DNA from: Thermoplasmata archaeon
GTDB taxonomy: Archaea > Thermoplasmatota > Thermoplasmata > Thermoplasmatales > Thermoplasmataceae
NCBI GenBank assembly: GCA_021847855.1
Contig: JAJZOT010000069.1
Location: 1-7,489, forward strand
Direction of reading: 5' to 3'
Length of the DNA stretch: 7,489 bases
Positions 1-7,489 of this stretch are shown piece by piece. The notes beneath the pieces were generated by a model. It made no database searches. It saw only the letters and a program-made list of their open reading frames with translations, and was not told the DNA's origin. The position numbers and the translations under genes are program-made. Positions within the stretch are counted from its first letter, which is position 1. Each line of letters opens with the position of its first letter.

Positions 1-428
1 AAATGAGAGTATGGATACACACGAGAAACAACCTGATCGTTGAGTTGAATCCTCAGGTGAGATTACCGAAATCCTACAACAGATTCGTAGGATTGATGGA
101 AGATCTCTTTGACAAAGGTCAGATAATTGGACCGGACGGATTCCTGTTAAGGCTGCATGACGGTGATTTCAAGACGCTGCTGGAATTATCCGGGCATTCA
201 AAACCGGTGATTCTGTCGCCAAAGGGAACCAGAACAAACATAAGAAAAGTGTTTGACGTATCCGGGAAAGACACGAGCGTAATAATAGGCGGTTTCTCAG
301 AGGGTGACTTCAGATCTCCCGTGTACGATCTTGGACATGGGTATTCAATATTCGATGAAGAACTGACCATATGGGCCGTTGGAATGGAACTGATCTGCCA
401 GTATGAGAGAGACTTCAATATAGTGTGA
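1..428 (+). CDS. nep1: Nep1/Emg1 rRNA pseudouridine N1-methyltransferase, C-terminal part
   Basis: SPOUT-class methyltransferase that methylates N1 of a pseudouridine in small-subunit rRNA during ribosome assembly, using S-adenosylmethionine (family knowledge). In the sequence, counting from the first in-window Met at base 3, the Nep1 signatures appear in order: HTRNNLIVELNP (6-17), the PKSYNRFVGLMEDLF block (22-36) used in RNA binding and dimerisation, SPKG (72-75), the cofactor-loop motif IGGFSEGDF (95-103), and the C-terminal helix LTIWAVGMELICQYE (121-135). Nep1 proteins are usually about 200-250 residues and this part has 141, so the N-terminal third lies left of the window and the Met at base 3 is internal, not the start. 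The gene ends with TGA and is convergent with the phosphodiesterase gene, 71 bases apart. It is a housekeeping neighbour with no evident link to the glycerol genes. Confidence 0.9.
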   Translation, partial: MRVWIHTRNNLIVELNPQVRLPKSYNRFVGLMEDLFDKGQIIGPDGFLLRLHDGDFKTLLELSGHSKPVILSPKGTRTNIRKVFDVSGKDTSVIIGGFSEGDFRSPVYDLGHGYSIFDEELTIWAVGMELICQYERDFNIV

Positions 429-499: not shown

Positions 500-1246
500 T
501 TACATCCGCATTTCACGCAGCATATACTCCCCTTCATTGGTTATCACTCCCAAACAGCCTGACCTTTTAAAATGCCGGGCATGTTCCGGATCGTTCACAG
601 TCCATGGTATAACTGTACTTCCGTCTTTGATTAATGCGTTAAGTTCCTGATCTGTGTGCACCCCGCATTCCGGCAGAAGCACGTCGAAATCCCGTAAGAA
701 GTGATTTTTTTCCGTATTCTGCTGAAAAAACGCCGAGAGGGTTCCCCTGTCATAGTCAATCCCGATTCGGATGTTTTGATCCAGTTTCTTTACTTCCTTG
801 AGAGAATATGGATTGAACGATATCACCACGACATTATCACGCAACGAATATTCATGAATGAGATTTACAACCTTGTCCGGAAGGTCGTTTCTTATCATGC
901 TTCCATCTTCCCTGACTGTTTTGAGCTCTATGAAAAAATTGAAGGAATCCATTGATTTAATCACGTTTTCTAGAGTCGGTATCCGCCCATCACCAGTTAT
1001 CCTGATTCCAGATACTTCCTCCCAGGTCATGTCAGAAAGTTCTTTATTCATTCCTGAAAGCCTCCTTAGATCGAAGTCATGGAATATAACTGGAACACGA
1101 TCCGACGTAAGTTGTACATCCAGTTCCACTGCGTCTAGACCGGCGTCTCTGGCTGCCATAAATGATTTAAGTGTGTTTTCCGTATATTTTGTGGGCAGCC
1201 CCCTGTGACCTATTATCAGAAACTTGCTATCAGAAAGAAAGTGCAT
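500..1246 (-). CDS. ugpQ: Cytoplasmic glycerophosphodiester phosphodiesterase (GDPD family)
   Basis: Hydrolyses glycerophosphodiesters (deacylated phospholipid head groups) to an alcohol plus glycerol-3-phosphate, with a metal ion in a TIM barrel (family knowledge). The 248-residue protein is the size of bacterial UgpQ and shows the complete catalytic set: HRG at 14-16 with the general-acid/base His14, EN at 23-24, ELDV at 41-44 supplying metal ligands Glu41 and Asp43, HD at 56-57, IELK at 106-109 with Glu107, ISFNP near 145, and PWTVND near the C-terminus. There is no signal peptide, since the barrel starts within the first ten residues, so the enzyme acts in the cytosol and its substrate must be imported. 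The ATG is the only sensible start before HRG and lies 26 bases from a TATA-like box, fitting a leaderless mRNA. The gene ends in tandem TAA TAA. It is divergent from glpA, which uses its product. GlpQ/UgpQ naming is by analogy. Confidence 0.92.
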   Translation of the reverse strand: MHFLSDSKFLIIGHRGLPTKYTENTLKSFMAARDAGLDAVELDVQLTSDRVPVIFHDFDLRRLSGMNKELSDMTWEEVSGIRITGDGRIPTLENVIKSMDSFNFFIELKTVREDGSMIRNDLPDKVVNLIHEYSLRDNVVVISFNPYSLKEVKKLDQNIRIGIDYDRGTLSAFFQQNTEKNHFLRDFDVLLPECGVHTDQELNALIKDGSTVIPWTVNDPEHARHFKRSGCLGVITNEGEYMLREMRM

Positions 1247-1464: not shown

Positions 1465-2736
1465 ATGACCGAAAAAATTGCAGTAATTGGCGGAGGCATA
1501 ACAGGGTTGTTTACCACACTCTATCTGGCAAATGCCGGACATGATGTTCATCTGTACGAAAGAGGAGACATAGCCTCCGGAACAAGCGGGCACTTTCATG
1601 GCATGCTTCACAGCGGTGCTAGATATGCCGTTAATGACGAGATCTCCGCTAGAGAATGCGTAATTGAAAACCGAACTATTTTTGAGATGGCTTCAAATTT
1701 TGTGGATGACACAGGAGGATATTTTGTCGCACTTGACAGTGATGAGGCAGAATATGGTTATACCTTGTTCAGGAGGTGTATTGATCTCGGTATAGTAACT
1801 GAGGAAATCCAGCCTGAAGAATTCCTTAAGCTTGAACCATTTGTGAATCCATCAGTTCAGAAAGTTCTGAAGGTTCCGGACAAGATCATCCATTCTTACG
1901 AATTCAACGTGGCAGTTGCTCTTGAAGCCCTGATGAACGGAGCATCCATTAGCATAAACAGCAATGTTGAAAAAATTAATGTTGAAGCAGGTTCTGTGCT
2001 GGGTATCACGGTAAATGACATTCGTGGAACCAGAAGAGAGAGCTTTGATTACGTGGTGAACGCTGCTGGACCGTATTCTTCCGGACTGCTTTCCAGATCT
2101 GGGCTGGAAACACCGCCACTCATGCCAGCTGTGGGATCCATGGCGGTTTACAACGGCAGATATGTTAATTCCGTGATAAACCGGATGAGGAAACCTTCTG
2201 ATGGCGATATTTTTCTCCCTTACGGGGAAGTTTCCATACTCGGAACTCTTGCAACTGTTGTTGAAGACCCAGAGGAATTCAAAGTGGATTCTGAAGATAT
2301 TGAGATGATGGTTGAAGAGGGTAAGGAAATGATCCCGTTGCTCGGCGGGATGAAATACCGCAGGATCTATTCTTCCATACGTCCACTCGTGGACGATAAT
2401 TCTAAATCTGCTAGGGAAACAACAAGAAGTTTCAGGATAGTGGATCACACGGCAGATGGACTTGACGGTCTTGTATCCATTGTAGGCGGGAAATTCACAA
2501 CTGGAAGGCTGATTGGCGAGAAGACGGCAGATTATGTAGCAGGAAAATTTGGAAACATGGATCGTGGTAAAAAGAACATAGACCTTAACAGCACCTATGA
2601 CAGATTCTCCCGTTCCGGTAAATGCCGTTATCCAGAATTACTGAAAATGATTGAGGGCAAGAGAGGAGCGATAGATGAAGAAAGACTGAGGCCTGCACTA
2701 AGTTTAATCTTTGCGGCTTCCATCTGCCTTGACTGA
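1465..2736 (+). CDS. glpA: FAD-dependent glycerol-3-phosphate dehydrogenase, GlpA type, without the C-terminal Fe-S domain
   Basis: Oxidises sn-glycerol-3-phosphate to dihydroxyacetone phosphate with FAD (family knowledge). The 423-residue DAO-type flavoprotein opens with the Rossmann motif GGGITG (9-14) and Glu32, which binds the adenosine ribose. The hallmark GlpA stretch follows at 39-54, ending HGMLHSGARY, then VNAAGPYS, NRMRKPSDGDIFLP, SSIRPLVDD, and the FAD-binding end SIVGGKFTTGRLIGEK (338-352). The order matches E. coli GlpA closely, but that protein has about 540 residues. The last ~150 residues, holding the Cys-rich BFD-like [2Fe-2S] domain, are absent, leaving about 60 residues with only two scattered Cys. 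Two family positions differ: Tyr in the usual GGK-x-TYRL motif is Gly347, and Arg after GATG/GTSG is His43. No GlpB or GlpC partner is seen; coxG follows one base after the stop. Electrons may go to quinone by a non-standard route (inference). FAD and enzyme class are secure; the acceptor is unknown. Confidence 0.88.
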   Translation: MTEKIAVIGGGITGLFTTLYLANAGHDVHLYERGDIASGTSGHFHGMLHSGARYAVNDEISARECVIENRTIFEMASNFVDDTGGYFVALDSDEAEYGYTLFRRCIDLGIVTEEIQPEEFLKLEPFVNPSVQKVLKVPDKIIHSYEFNVAVALEALMNGASISINSNVEKINVEAGSVLGITVNDIRGTRRESFDYVVNAAGPYSSGLLSRSGLETPPLMPAVGSMAVYNGRYVNSVINRMRKPSDGDIFLPYGEVSILGTLATVVEDPEEFKVDSEDIEMMVEEGKEMIPLLGGMKYRRIYSSIRPLVDDNSKSARETTRSFRIVDHTADGLDGLVSIVGGKFTTGRLIGEKTADYVAGKFGNMDRGKKNIDLNSTYDRFSRSGKCRYPELLKMIEGKRGAIDEERLRPALSLIFAASICLD

Positions 2737-2737
2737 T

Positions 2738-3196
2738 ATGTTGCTTGAGGGAGAATTTACCGTTAACAGGCCAGTGCAGGAAGTAAACAGGTATCTCAGA
2801 GATATGGACAGGATTATGACTTGCCTCCCAGGTCTGCAGCAGTACACAAGATCCGGAGAAGAATATGTCTGCAGAATCAAACTCGACGTGTCAAAGGCGG
2901 AAAATTCATACCTTTCCACCCTCAGCGGAAAACTGGTTGCGAAATACGAAGATTCAACAGAAAATATGGCCAGAATATCCGCAAATGGAAGAATTGCCGG
3001 TTCATCCATCCAACTGATTATAATTGTGAGAACTTCACAGGAAGGTGGATCTACCTCTGTTTCATGGAGCAGCGAGATGGAATTCGGCCTTCTGATAAGG
3101 ATTATCGGGGAGAGCAAGGTCAGGGAATTATCCACATTCAATATTGAAAAAACTATAGAATGTATTCGGAACCAGATGGAAACTGTTCAGACGTAA
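2738..3196 (+). CDS. coxG: CoxG-like SRPBCC protein, coupled to glpA
   Basis: A 152-residue SRPBCC/START-fold protein of the CoxG (CO dehydrogenase subunit G) family. It opens with the family signature LEGEFTVNRPVQEV (3-16), followed by CLPG near residue 28, the antiparallel-strand region with the GKL, ARISANGRIAG and SVSWSSEME blocks, and a long C-terminal helix that closes the hydrophobic cavity. CoxG proteins are linked to membrane recruitment and quinone access of Mo-containing CO dehydrogenases, but no CO dehydrogenase gene occurs here. The form is short, without the hydrophobic C-terminal tail of many CoxG proteins. The ATG at 2738 is chosen over an upstream TTG at 2711 because the family signature begins right at the ATG. 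It follows the glpA stop by one base, so the two are almost certainly co-transcribed and translationally coupled; there is no clear ribosome binding site. A role as electron-transfer or membrane-docking partner of GlpA is inferred from this linkage. Confidence 0.85.
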   Translation: MLLEGEFTVNRPVQEVNRYLRDMDRIMTCLPGLQQYTRSGEEYVCRIKLDVSKAENSYLSTLSGKLVAKYEDSTENMARISANGRIAGSSIQLIIIVRTSQEGGSTSVSWSSEMEFGLLIRIIGESKVRELSTFNIEKTIECIRNQMETVQT

Positions 3197-3212: not shown

Positions 3213-3254
3213 TAAAAAATTGAAAATTAAAAAATTCAGGAGGAAATTCCCTCC
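3213..3254 (-). terminator. Hairpin plus T-tract terminator of the MFS gene
   Basis: On the minus strand a GGAGG/CCTCC stem with a 6-base loop (3239-3254) covers the last MFS codons. It is followed by the TGA stop and three T-runs of six, four and six bases down to 3213. Oligo-T tracts are sufficient for archaeal termination, and the stem resembles a bacterial intrinsic terminator. It sits in the 39-base gap of a convergent gene pair, where termination is expected. Confidence 0.6.
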
Positions 3255-4567
3255 AGTGACCTGTTTTTTGTCTCCTCCCCAAGGAATATGGTTACTAGAA
3301 ATCCTGACAATCCAACGAAAAACAGCAGAATTTCCATTGGCACGATTCCATAAATACTAAACGTTATGGGAAAGACCACTGCGGAGATTATCGCTCCAAC
3401 CCTGCTTATTGCTGTTCCAGCGCCCATTGCGGTTGTTCTTATTCTTGTGGGGAAAAGTTCGCTGACAAATATCCCAGTTGTCTGTCCTGTTCCCCCTGCG
3501 TTTGCAAAGTAGAATATGGCAAACATCGGGAAAAGCAGTAATAGAGGCGGAGCTCCCCCAGTAACCAAAAAGAATAATCCCAGGATAAGCAAAGCCACAC
3601 CCTGTGCAAGGAACGTGTAAGCCTGCCATTTTTTACGGCCAATGATATCAGCGGTAAATACGAATACTATTGTCCCAATAATACCGATCATGTACAGCAG
3701 AAGCGTAAGGGACAGAGCGTCTGAATGAGATGATGATGAATATCCTAGGGCGAGTATCAGGAAAGCTGTGTAGATACCAATACCGTAGAATATCAGATCA
3801 TTGAGGAACCAGGCAGTGTATGTGAATACTGCCCTTTTCTTGTAATTTATATTCTTCGAGGCATTTGTTTCTTCATAGAGGGTTGATTCTTCCTTAGCGG
3901 TCATATGGAATTTCTTTTTGATTTCAGTGATCTCTTTTGTGTCATTCTTCTCATCAGCAAATCTGGGTGTTTCCTCAACCTGCCTTCTGAGTATCAGTAC
4001 AATTACCGCGGGAATAGCGCCAGCTGCAAGCAGGAACCGCCAGGCGTTGGCTCCAACAGGAAGAAGTGCCAGTCCGAGAGCGACTGCGGTTGCACCGCCT
4101 ATCCACCATGACATTAACCCAGTTCCGAGGAGCTTTCCTCTTTCTTTGACCGGGGCAAATTCACCTATGATCGATAAGGTCAGGGCATAGTCTGCGCCTA
4201 TTGCGAGACCCAGCAATGTCCTGAAGGCGATAAGTTCTCCGGCGTTGGCCGAAATGGCACTGAGTATTGCAAATGCGGCAAATATCAGCATATCCCACTG
4301 ATATATCAGTTTCCTTCCCTTCATATCGGCGACGAAGCCAAATATTGCTCCTCCAACCAGCTGGCCAATAATTGTTGCTACTCCAACGAGCGCAGACAAT
4401 GCCGGTGTTAATCCAAATAACGGACCTATAAAGATAAGGGCCGGACCTATTACGAGCAGATCGTATCCGTCCAGAAAATAGCCCATGTCCGACAGAGCCG
4501 TTATGAAATAATGGTAACGTCTTGGCTTTAGACTGTCCATTTCTCTCAAAAATTGACTTTCAGTCAT
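3236..4567 (-). CDS. MFS transporter, sugar/phosphate-porter-like, probably proton-coupled
   Basis: A 443-residue inner-membrane carrier with about twelve hydrophobic helices in two halves of six, separated by a charged loop (about 193-250). Signatures: an acidic DGYD motif in helix 1 (33-36), the loop 2-3 motif GFVADMKGRK (76-85), R115 followed by GLAIGADYALTLS and EFAPVKERGK (119-144), the PESPR-like EETPRF after helix 6 (197-202), a second-half ADIIGRK (306-312), SELFPTRIR (369-377), and a C-terminal ETKNRSLEGI. These are the motifs of the sugar-porter and Pho84-like phosphate-porter families. The IGADY-S-EF pattern leans toward the latter, whose relatives include the yeast glycerophosphoinositol carrier GIT1. 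Substrate cannot be read from sequence. Flanked by glycerol kinase and glycerol-phosphate genes, with no GlpF or GlpT in view, it is a candidate importer of glycerol, glycerol phosphate or glycerophosphodiesters (inference). It lies 108 bases downstream of glpK and probably has its own promoter. Confidence 0.88.
   Translation of the reverse strand: MTESQFLREMDSLKPRRYHYFITALSDMGYFLDGYDLLVIGPALIFIGPLFGLTPALSALVGVATIIGQLVGGAIFGFVADMKGRKLIYQWDMLIFAAFAILSAISANAGELIAFRTLLGLAIGADYALTLSIIGEFAPVKERGKLLGTGLMSWWIGGATAVALGLALLPVGANAWRFLLAAGAIPAVIVLILRRQVEETPRFADEKNDTKEITEIKKKFHMTAKEESTLYEETNASKNINYKKRAVFTYTAWFLNDLIFYGIGIYTAFLILALGYSSSSHSDALSLTLLLYMIGIIGTIVFVFTADIIGRKKWQAYTFLAQGVALLILGLFFLVTGGAPPLLLLFPMFAIFYFANAGGTGQTTGIFVSELFPTRIRTTAMGAGTAISRVGAIISAVVFPITFSIYGIVPMEILLFFVGLSGFLVTIFLGEETKNRSLEGISS
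3239..3269 (+). terminator. Possible terminator of glpA-coxG inside the MFS 3' end
   Basis: The same stem read on the plus strand (3239-3254) is followed nine bases later by a run of six T (3264-3269). This could end coxG transcription inside the 3' end of the convergent MFS gene. The spacing to the T-run is longer than in classical terminators, but archaeal polymerase needs mainly the T-run. Confidence 0.35.
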
Positions 4568-4675: not shown

Positions 4676-6160
4676 TCAGAGGTCTTTGAGTCTACCGAGA
4701 GTCTTTTGCCATCCATGGTAAATCCGGTCACCTATGGCCCTGTCTATTTCTGGGGAGTAAGATTCGCCGGATTCATTCAGGAACTTTCCAACTTCACTGA
4801 TCGGAATTTGTTCAAAAACAGCCAAGGAAAGCGCCGCAGCCCCTTTTGCAGTAATGCTTCCTGAGTTAGCTGGAACTGTAATGGGAATACCCAATATGTC
4901 CGCAAGAAACTGGTTGAACTCTGGGTTGTTTGTTAATCCTCCGTCGATCCTGAGTCCGTTTATATCAATTTTCAGAGATGCCTCAAAAGCCCTGAGGATA
5001 TCCTTAGTTCTGTAGGCTATTGAAGCGATGGCGGACACAAGTAAATCCTCCTTGGATGTCGCGTAATTGAGACCCACTATCGCTCCCCTCATATTCGGGT
5101 CCCAGTAAGGAGCGCCGAGCCCCTGAAGGGAGTTCACAAAATACAGGCCCGGATTCTTCAGGACTCTTGATGTTATTTCAGTGATGTCGTCGTCATTGAA
5201 ATCTATCTTGATTGACTTTCTAAGCCATTCCATCAATCCTCCAGCTAAAAAAATGCTTCCTTCAAGACAGAAATTCCTGCCACCGGATTCGTCCGTAAAG
5301 GCAATGGACGTGAGAAGATTTTTGTCGTACACAGGATTGGGACCGGTATTGGTCAATATGAAAGCCCCGGTACCGTAGCTGCTTTTTGTCTGTCCTCTTG
5401 ACATGGAACCGTGACCCAGTAGTGAAGCCTGTTGATCCCCGATAATTGAAAATATCGGGGAACTGAATCCTACAGCTTCCGTGCTGGTATCTGCAATATG
5501 CGAAGCTGACGGGAGAACACTTGGAAGAATTTCATATGGTATCCCGAGAATGTCGAGTATTTCCTGATCCCAGTCCAGAGAATGAATGTTGAATAGCATG
5601 GTTCTGGAAGCATTGGACGGGTCAGTTACATTATCTGATCCCCCGCTAAGATTCCACACAAGCCATGAATCCACTGTCCCGACTGCGAGTCTGTTTTCCT
5701 TAATAAGTGCATCAATTCCCGGAACGTTGTTTAACAGCCATTGGATCTTGCTTGCGCTGAAATACGTGTCCGGAATCAAGCCAGTCTTGGACTTGAAAAA
5801 TGAAAAATGATCAGACCTGAACCGTTCCACCAGGGAGCTATTGCGCCGGTCCTGCCATGATATTGCCTGGTGAATCGGTCGACCGTCACGTTTGTCCCAG
5901 GCAATTACTGTCTCCCTCTGGTTAGTTATTCCTACAGAAGCTATGTTACCTGCTTCTGTACCGGTTTTAAGCATCACGTCTCTGATGACCTTCCGTTGTT
6001 TATTCCATATTTCTTCTGGATCCTGCTCCGCCATACCTTGATTACCGTAAGACATCGATATTTTCTCTGAAGCTGATCCTATAAGTTTCAGGGAATTTGA
6101 CCATATTGTAGCTTTGACAGCAGTCGTACCAGAATCAATTGCCAGAATCACACCGGTCAT
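4676..6160 (-). CDS. glpK: Glycerol kinase
   Basis: Phosphorylates glycerol with ATP to sn-glycerol-3-phosphate in the cytosol. The 494-residue length is typical of the FGGY-family glycerol kinases. Motifs in order: the phosphate-binding DSGTT (9-13; the usual form is DQGTT), GITNQRET (77-84) with glycerol-binding Arg82 and Glu83, ISWQDRR (100-106) with Trp102, TGLIPDTYFSASK (126-138) with Tyr133, GTVDSWLVW (161-169), NASRTMLFNI (183-192), GDQQ (241-244) with catalytic Asp242, SSYGTGAF, EGSIFLAGG, GLGAPYWDPNMRGAIVGL, and the ATP-site LRIDGGLTNNPEFNQF. The whole glycerol-binding set is therefore intact, and glycerol rather than another polyol is the likely substrate. The start is firm: an in-frame TGA lies two codons upstream and this is the only ATG before DSGTT. 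It follows the flavoprotein gene by 73 bases on the same strand. Its product feeds the GlpA-type dehydrogenase 2 kb away on the other strand. Confidence 0.96.
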   Translation of the reverse strand: MTGVILAIDSGTTAVKATIWSNSLKLIGSASEKISMSYGNQGMAEQDPEEIWNKQRKVIRDVMLKTGTEAGNIASVGITNQRETVIAWDKRDGRPIHQAISWQDRRNSSLVERFRSDHFSFFKSKTGLIPDTYFSASKIQWLLNNVPGIDALIKENRLAVGTVDSWLVWNLSGGSDNVTDPSNASRTMLFNIHSLDWDQEILDILGIPYEILPSVLPSASHIADTSTEAVGFSSPIFSIIGDQQASLLGHGSMSRGQTKSSYGTGAFILTNTGPNPVYDKNLLTSIAFTDESGGRNFCLEGSIFLAGGLMEWLRKSIKIDFNDDDITEITSRVLKNPGLYFVNSLQGLGAPYWDPNMRGAIVGLNYATSKEDLLVSAIASIAYRTKDILRAFEASLKIDINGLRIDGGLTNNPEFNQFLADILGIPITVPANSGSITAKGAAALSLAVFEQIPISEVGKFLNESGESYSPEIDRAIGDRIYHGWQKTLGRLKDL

Positions 6161-6233: not shown

Positions 6234-7489
6234 TCATGAAGTCCCCATTCGCTTCAATTTGCCAAGCAGTACATCTGCCGCAACGCCTATTGGTTCCCAG
6301 GTCGGTGAAAATGGCGGTGAATAGGAATAGTCAATCTTGGTCAGGTCTTCCACCATCAATTTGGAATACATCGCGGATGCCAGGACGTCAAGGCGTTTTG
6401 CAACTCCTTCTTTTCCCATCAGGTTTGCTCCGATCAATCTGCGTGAACCAAGATCAGCGGTGAGTTTTATTGTAATTGGCGTCGCCCCGGGGTAATACGA
6501 AGCTTTTGAAGTTGAAGTTATCGTGGATGATACCGGCTTGAAGCCGGATTCCAGCGCCTCTTCGTCAGTCAGACCAACTCTGCCAATTTCCAGATCAAAT
6601 ACTTTCACTACCTCAGTTGCACAGATGCCGGCATATTCTGCACTGCCGCCGACTGCATTTTCACCCGCAGTTCTTCCTTCTTTGTTTGAACCGGTGGCAA
6701 GCGGGAAATATGTGTCCTTCCCATTCACCATATTCCTGGTGGTTGCTACATCGCCGGCTGCATATATGCCTCTGATATTGGTTTCCATGCGTTCGTTGAC
6801 CTTAATCGCATTGGAAACCCCTGTCAATATGCCTGCGTTCACAGCAATTTCACTGTTCGGAATCACACCAACTGAGACGAAAAGCAGATCAGCCGGGATA
6901 TATCTGGAACCTGTTGTTACACCTGTAATTTTCCCATTTTCGCTATTTATCTTGTCTATCCGTGAATTCAATAGGATATCTATGCCATTACGCTTGAGGG
7001 TTTCCTTCACCGTTTCCATCATTTCCCTGTCAAGGCCCCTGAGTATCCTTTCTGATCTCTGGATTATTGAAACCTTGATGCCACGCTTGGTGAATGCTTC
7101 GGCCATCTCCAGGCCTATGTATCCTGCTCCAACAATTACTGCATCTTTTGCTGATTTGACTGCATCTTCTATGGTTCTGAGTTCGTTGAGAGTCCTGAGT
7201 GTGTACACCCCTTTTAAGCCTGAAAATTCATCAGGAATACGTGCTCTGGCTCCAGTGGCTATAACCAGGGCATCATAATGATCGGAGAACATTCCTTCAC
7301 TGGAATTCACGGCCACCTCTTTTCTTTCCGGATTGATTTCCAGTACCTCTGAATTGATATGCACGTCAATTCGCCTCTCCCCGGTGAATTTGGACAACGG
7401 ATAATGAATAAGGCTATCAAAATCCGGGACAACCCCTCCAATGAAGAATGGCATTCCACAGGCGGAGTAAGAAACGTATGAGCCTTTTT
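6234..7489 (-). CDS. CoA-disulfide reductase / NADH oxidase family flavoprotein, N-terminus outside the window
   Basis: Class of FAD/NAD(P)-dependent disulfide reductases that reduce CoA disulfide, or O2 via a single active-site Cys (CoADR/Nox family). 417 codons are in the window. The open frame runs past the ATG at 7454 to the edge: the codons before it encode SYSACG, so the block reads SYSACGMPFFIGG, matching the family's redox-cysteine motif, with the Cys codon at 7458-7460. The Met at 7454 is therefore internal, and only the first FAD-binding GxGxxG (about 30-40 residues) is missing. Further motifs are VIATGARARIP, the NAD-binding VGAGYIGLEMAEAF (about 7095-7136), the FAD-binding GIYAAGDVA (about 6745-6770), the dimerisation-domain VVKVFDLEIGRVGLT, ASYYPGATP, KEGVAKRLDV, and the C-terminal YSPPFSPTWEPI. 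CoA-disulfide reductase and H2O- or H2O2-forming NADH oxidase cannot be told apart here. Being upstream of glpK on the same strand, it may belong to that operon. Confidence 0.9.
   Translation of the reverse strand, partial: KGSYVSYSACGMPFFIGGVVPDFDSLIHYPLSKFTGERRIDVHINSEVLEINPERKEVAVNSSEGMFSDHYDALVIATGARARIPDEFSGLKGVYTLRTLNELRTIEDAVKSAKDAVIVGAGYIGLEMAEAFTKRGIKVSIIQRSERILRGLDREMMETVKETLKRNGIDILLNSRIDKINSENGKITGVTTGSRYIPADLLFVSVGVIPNSEIAVNAGILTGVSNAIKVNERMETNIRGIYAAGDVATTRNMVNGKDTYFPLATGSNKEGRTAGENAVGGSAEYAGICATEVVKVFDLEIGRVGLTDEEALESGFKPVSSTITSTSKASYYPGATPITIKLTADLGSRRLIGANLMGKEGVAKRLDVLASAMYSKLMVEDLTKIDYSYSPPFSPTWEPIGVAADVLLGKLKRMGTS

Follow-up and report, generated by a model that had tools for sequence, protein, structure and literature searches.

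Two pairs of genes from Sulfolobus acidocaldarius, Saci_2032/Saci_2031 and Saci_1118/Saci_1119, are the closest described relatives of the locus considered here; in each, a truncated GlpA-like dehydrogenase is encoded in an operon with the small protein CoxG (Schmerling et al. 2025, PMC11962113). When produced in E. coli, the Sulfolobus dehydrogenase is cytoplasmic without CoxG and found at the membrane with CoxG, and in Sulfolobus itself CoxG is membrane-associated and co-immunoprecipitates its own dehydrogenase (PMC11962113). Produced without CoxG, the dehydrogenases form active homodimers that carry one flavin adenine dinucleotide (FAD) per monomer and, once purified, reduce ubiquinone-Q1, which the authors describe as water-soluble (PMC11962113). 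A 2026 genomic survey of carbon monoxide (CO) dehydrogenases, citing Kropp et al. 2025, describes CoxG as menaquinone-binding and as delivering electrons to the quinone pool (PMC13240472). Here we examine a 7,489-nucleotide stretch from a Thermoplasmata archaeon of the order Thermoplasmatales (the window), in which a short glpA is followed by coxG. This pair is very probably a quinone-linked glycerol-3-phosphate dehydrogenase of the S. acidocaldarius GlpA-CoxG kind. The available part of PMC11962113 contains no explicit statement that coxG follows glpA in Thermoplasmatales, which the present survey shows, and no mention of GlpA-CoxG in Nitrososphaeria or DPANN archaea. Beyond that report, a literature search of limited coverage found no further relevant work linking CoxG with glycerol-3-phosphate dehydrogenase or Thermoplasmatales.

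The window GlpA lacks the BFD-like [2Fe-2S] domain, as the original prediction had read from the sequence. PF01266 spans residues 4–356 (E 4.5e-45, Pfam scan), the Pfam matches at E ≤ 1e-3 include no BFD domain, and the GlpA model TIGR03377 matches only at model positions 2–367 of 530 (349 bits, curated cut-off 552.8). The C-terminal tail comprises 75 residues beyond the GGKFTTGR motif, or 67 beyond the end of the DAO domain, near enough to the 'about 60 residues' past the last FAD motif first estimated, and contains two cysteines, not four. Ninety-six of the best 100 homologues are 414–440 amino acids (aa) long (the remaining four are 328, 358, 446 and 463 aa), and a precomputed BFD domain (PF04324) first appears at rank 101 among the 120 homologues listed. 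The protein also misses the GlpD/GlpO family cut-offs (NF008899, 93.9 bits versus 360; NF033460, 54.8 versus 460). Residues G9/G11/G14, H49, R53, Y54, R306 and R321 are invariant in 28 aligned GlpA rows; the last five, which we take to be substrate-binding residues, align with identical residues in the GlpD-type structure 3da1. The tail (residues 349–423) is alignable across Thermoplasmatales, Sulfolobales and Thermoproteales rows and includes a nearly invariant D404 (76 rows). We infer that it is a candidate contact region for the dimer or for CoxG.

As predicted, coxG begins one base after glpA (stop TGA at 2734–2736, ATG at 2738). An in-frame TTG at 2711 provides an alternative, longer start; homologue P0121, 91% identical, has a length of 152 aa, in agreement with the ATG. 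The product matches positions 1–138 of the 140 in PF06240 (E 5.8e-27) and has a predicted helix-grip/SRPBCC fold, the solved members of which include ligand-bound ones.

To see how far the pair is conserved, we surveyed an evenly drawn set of 101 genomes of the order, taken from a larger group and about half of them >90% complete. GlpA of the window type occurs in 25 of these (own genome included) at 521–608 bits; the next match scores 163 bits. In 24 of the 25, a PF06240 match lies directly downstream on the same strand, with 11–69 bases between matched stretches. These 24 include one genome with a partial CoxG at a contig edge (G085); in G096, the 25th genome, it is the GlpA match that stops 70 bases from a contig edge. 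The conserved adjacency that the original prediction proposed to check is thus found in nearly all sampled genomes of the order having this GlpA, and chance adjacency of glpA and coxG is rejected on its recurrence in 24 of 25. CoxG matches number 78 in 55 genomes, and 54 of the 78 lie away from GlpA; therefore CoxG is not specific to GlpA.

The genome holding the window (1.86 Mb in 66 contigs, the window being on contig 29) is 92.5% complete and 1.2% contaminated. A full-length glpA with glpBC elsewhere in this genome, which would speak against the original prediction, was sought and not found. TIGR03377 has one match; the GlpC model reaches no more than 31.7 and 18.9 bits against a cut-off of 279.9, and for GlpB there is just a fragment of 31 positions at 18.6 bits (cut-off 174.15). 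Across the 101 genomes, GlpB and GlpC were each found in none at E ≤ 1e-20. At the same threshold, GlpB was recovered from the controls E. coli and Haloferax volcanii, both above the cut-off, and GlpC from E. coli, Methanocaldococcus jannaschii, Haloferax volcanii, S. acidocaldarius and Methanosarcina acetivorans, two of the five above the cut-off. Genes for menaquinone synthesis and for a bd oxidase are present in the genome.

Two further CoxG genes occur in the same genome. On contig 53, a CoxG paralogue stands directly behind a CoxL-type large subunit (L003 1086-3009, minus strand) with MoCoBD_1 and MoCoBD_2 domains. The other, on contig 17, is directly preceded by an open reading frame (ORF; L001 1926-3350, minus strand) with RRXRR and HNH domains, presumably IscB-like. 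The two paralogues are 15% and 19% identical to the window CoxG; some GlpA-linked CoxGs are themselves just 18–28% identical to it, so identity alone does not separate paralogues. Judged from gene position, the window CoxG looks dedicated to the glycerol-3-phosphate dehydrogenase. Its assignment as a CO dehydrogenase partner is rejected, as the window copy follows glpA and another CoxG follows the CoxL-type gene.

A wider sample places the pair outside the order as well. Eighty loci were taken from a named genome collection as the best of 592, ranked by similarity to an alignment led by the window protein, and are not an even sample. A one-sequence search for CoxG homologues had yielded one relative among eight candidates, and CoxG relatives were then gathered from GlpA neighbourhoods. 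Because a profile built in this way is circular, the 24 CoxGs of the sample were checked against Pfam independently, and all 24 match PF06240 on their own. Within the 80 loci, CoxG follows 24 GlpAs, none of which has a BFD domain, and stands behind none of the 40 BFD-type GlpAs with downstream sequence. Ten GlpAs have neither BFD nor CoxG, and six loci (three with and three without BFD) end at GlpA and fall outside the CoxG test. GlpA and CoxG are not fused in one open frame in the window or in loci L001–L087. Titles among the 24 CoxG-linked loci include Thermoplasmata, Thermoproteota, Vulcanisaeta, Aeropyrum, Nitrososphaeria and Nanoarchaeota/Parvarchaeota. Among 66 GlpAs placed in a tree (20 of the 40 BFD loci in, the six end-of-contig loci out, and 11 extra named proteins counted in no group), the 25 CoxG-linked rows form one side of one branch (Shimodaira-Hasegawa-like approximate likelihood ratio test (SH-aLRT) support 99), requiring one change against a shuffled mean of 18.3. 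This fits one origin of the GlpA-CoxG association, although, as the root is not fixed, CoxG linkage might just as well be ancestral.

Several loci of this sample are of interest in their own right. Eight GlpA-CoxG loci carry Nanoarchaeota or Parvarchaeota titles (L015, L016, L017, L018, L020, L021, L022 and L026), which is surprising for small DPANN archaea and may be explained by binning errors. Another pair (L012 2030-3809) comes from a 3.9-kb contig that bears the title Candidatus Rehaiarchaeum fermentans; its GlpA clusters with those of Sulfolobus (SH-aLRT 100), which suggests either transfer or a misbinned contig. Six of the ten GlpAs with neither BFD nor CoxG, all Chloroflexota-labelled, have an SdhB-type [2Fe-2S] gene downstream (L029, L057, L064, L069, L073 and L086); a domain scan of L029 and L073 finds Fer2_3 and Fer4 domains followed by Sdh_cyt membrane genes. 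These loci resemble the GlpA-SdhBCD type of Thermofilum (PMC11962113), but in bacteria. The other four (L051, L053, L061 and L062) have no assigned partner.

The genes suggest the following route. Glycerol, via the kinase, or glycerophosphodiesters cut by GDPD would give glycerol-3-phosphate, which the DAO-fold GlpA would convert to dihydroxyacetone phosphate with reduction of its own FAD. Since the enzyme has no BFD cluster and no GlpB or GlpC was found to accompany it, electrons would then go from the reduced FAD to quinone directly; a straight transfer of this kind, as in GlpD, is the economical reading. The helix-grip SRPBCC protein CoxG would bind GlpA and retain it at the surface of the membrane, close to the quinone pool, and holding the short flavoenzyme on the membrane is most likely its role. 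To our knowledge CoxG proteins contain no redox centre, and therefore CoxG would not take over the chemistry of the Fe-S domain, as one sense of the original prediction had it. Docking of the flavoenzyme to the membrane, the first of the two roles that the prediction proposed for CoxG, is the supported reading because of the co-expression, localization and co-immunoprecipitation results of Schmerling et al. (PMC11962113). Like the Sulfolobus complex, the window pair would be recruited to the membrane and reduce Q1.

The original prediction offered a second possibility, namely that CoxG carries quinone to the FAD. Here CoxG would act as a shuttle and not just an anchor, its helix-grip cavity extracting menaquinone from the membrane and presenting it to GlpA, as proposed for bacterial CO dehydrogenase. 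The predicted SRPBCC fold, with its ligand-bound members among solved structures, and the description of the CoxG of CO dehydrogenases as menaquinone-binding (PMC13240472) are consistent with such a role. So far it is unsupported for GlpA: the purified Sulfolobus dehydrogenases reduce Q1 without CoxG (PMC11962113). As that assay used a water-soluble quinone, which needs no extraction from the membrane, it leaves room for a shuttle, which we nevertheless consider unlikely. In a broader form, CoxG would be a general quinone-presenting subunit of soluble flavoenzymes, lifting native menaquinone (or caldariellaquinone) from the membrane to FAD and serving Mo-CO dehydrogenases and glycerol-3-phosphate dehydrogenases alike. 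This too is a doubtful proposal, with which the Q1 assay is compatible because Q1 is water-soluble (PMC11962113).

Small partner genes next to an enzyme gene frequently encode maturation factors, and CoxG might mature or stabilize the flavoenzyme (e.g., through FAD loading or dimer formation) instead of docking it. We regard this as very improbable: the Sulfolobus dehydrogenases made without CoxG are already active, dimeric and FAD-loaded, and co-expression with CoxG shifts the location of the dehydrogenase (PMC11962113). Least probable, and hardly credible, is that a frameshift, a sequencing error or recent decay has shortened what was an ordinary GlpA of the GlpABC type, with CoxG serving a CO dehydrogenase. 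The first 367 residues do match the GlpA model, and the molybdopterin-binding CoxL-type gene lies on another contig of the genome, but that gene has its own CoxG directly behind, the short length recurs in 96 of the best 100 homologues with PF04324 first appearing at rank 101, the tail is alignable across the group, and GlpB and GlpC were not found in the genome. A truncated GlpABC gene is rejected on the conserved length, the conserved pairing and the GlpB/GlpC result.

Several points weigh against a CoxG-docked, quinone-linked dehydrogenase in this organism. Its pair is known from genes, domains and predicted folds, and complex formation, recruitment and Q1 reduction come from Sulfolobus. 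Identity to the Sulfolobus protein is just 45% (SUSAZ homologue, over 98% of the window GlpA). Although S. acidocaldarius falls on the CoxG-linked side of the tree, the branch that unites Sulfolobales rows with those of the Thermoplasmatales is poorly supported (29), in a tree with no fixed root. The 152-aa CoxG ends three residues past its final predicted helix (125–149) and lacks a C-terminal membrane-anchoring tail like that of M. smegmatis CoxG, the structure of which (8uds) is titled 'minus lipid anchoring C-terminus'. The completeness of the genome leaves a small chance that glpBC were missed. The gene for the kinase, though close by, is on the opposite strand, and therefore in a different operon from glpA-coxG. 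The four other genomes of the same genus in the draw (G066, G076, G082 and G084) all lack this GlpA and each have one CoxG; the glycerol-3-phosphate pathway is patchy within the genus.

The features of the window are collected in the table below. The GDPD, MFS transporter and kinase-type genes predicted around the pair form a putative glycerol and glycerophosphodiester context, in which the neighbouring GDPD could supply glycerol-3-phosphate.

Table. Genes and motifs of the window, with positions numbered from its first letter.
Feature	Positions	Strand	Basis
EMG1/Nep1 ribosomal RNA methyltransferase gene, 3' part only; ordinary	3-428	+	PF03587
Glycerophosphodiester phosphodiesterase (GDPD, PF03009), divergent neighbour of glpA	500..1246	-	ORF, Pfam
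GlpA-type FAD glycerol-3-phosphate dehydrogenase, 423 aa, without BFD [2Fe-2S] domain	1465..2736	+	ORF, Pfam, TIGR03377, homologues
N-terminal FAD Rossmann motif GGGITG, GlpA residues 9-14	1489..1506	+	G9, G11, G14 invariant in 28 rows
GGKFTTGR motif, GlpA residues 341-348, final strongly conserved stretch of DAO fold	2485..2508	+	Alignment
Short C-terminal GlpA tail, residues 349-423, predicted helical, where the BFD domain would be	2509..2733	+	Sequence, prediction
CoxG-family (PF06240) SRPBCC-fold protein, 152 aa, presumed membrane-docking subunit	2738..3196	+	Pfam, predicted fold
MFS transporter gene between coxG and kinase gene	3236..4567	-	ORF, Pfam/family models
Glycerol kinase-type FGGY kinase	4676..6160	-	TIGR01311 502.9 bits, below cut-off 590.35
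CoA-disulfide reductase-like flavoprotein, runs past window end	6234-7487	-	TIGR03385 371 bits, below cut-off 578.8

Docking of a dehydrogenase by CoxG is already published for S. acidocaldarius, and the novelty first claimed for this locus falls away accordingly; the extension of CoxG function beyond CO and hydrogen oxidation holds but is not new (PMC11962113). The present survey contributes the strict pairing within the order (24 of 25 genomes), the lack of overlap between CoxG and BFD in the sample, and the spread to Nitrososphaeria- and DPANN-labelled genomes. Within this order, the CoxG-docked dehydrogenase described in Sulfolobus is thus conserved as a gene pair, and it likewise occurs in loci titled Nitrososphaeria, Thermoproteota and Parvarchaeota/Nanoarchaeota. 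As no locus of the sample combines CoxG with BFD, CoxG is a useful marker for how archaea link glycerol oxidation to the membrane.

Among known systems, the window shares with the S. acidocaldarius pairs, as reported in PMC11962113, a truncated DAO-fold GlpA, the absence of a four-cysteine C-terminus, direct coxG linkage, the absence of GlpC, and a glycerol kinase nearby. It differs in belonging to another archaeal lineage and in having its kinase on the opposite strand with GDPD and MFS genes nearby. The GlpA-SdhBCD type of Thermofilum (PMC11962113) likewise has a GlpA with a non-GlpBC partner set downstream, but there an SdhB/C/D-like module of Fe-S and membrane proteins takes the place of CoxG. 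With the GlpABC enzymes of E. coli and haloarchaea the window GlpA has its catalytic part in common (TIGR03377 positions 2–367), whereas it lacks BFD, and GlpB and GlpC do not rise above the cut-off in its genome. It is nearer to GlpA than to E. coli GlpD (2qcu; TIGR03377 349 bits versus NF008899 93.9, both below cut-off), and GlpD itself binds the membrane (PMC11962113). The CoxG of aerobic CO dehydrogenases (8uds from M. smegmatis; Oligotropha) has the same PF06240 domain and helix-grip fold, but the window CoxG has no C-terminal anchoring tail, and it is paired with a flavoprotein dehydrogenase instead of a molybdenum hydroxylase.
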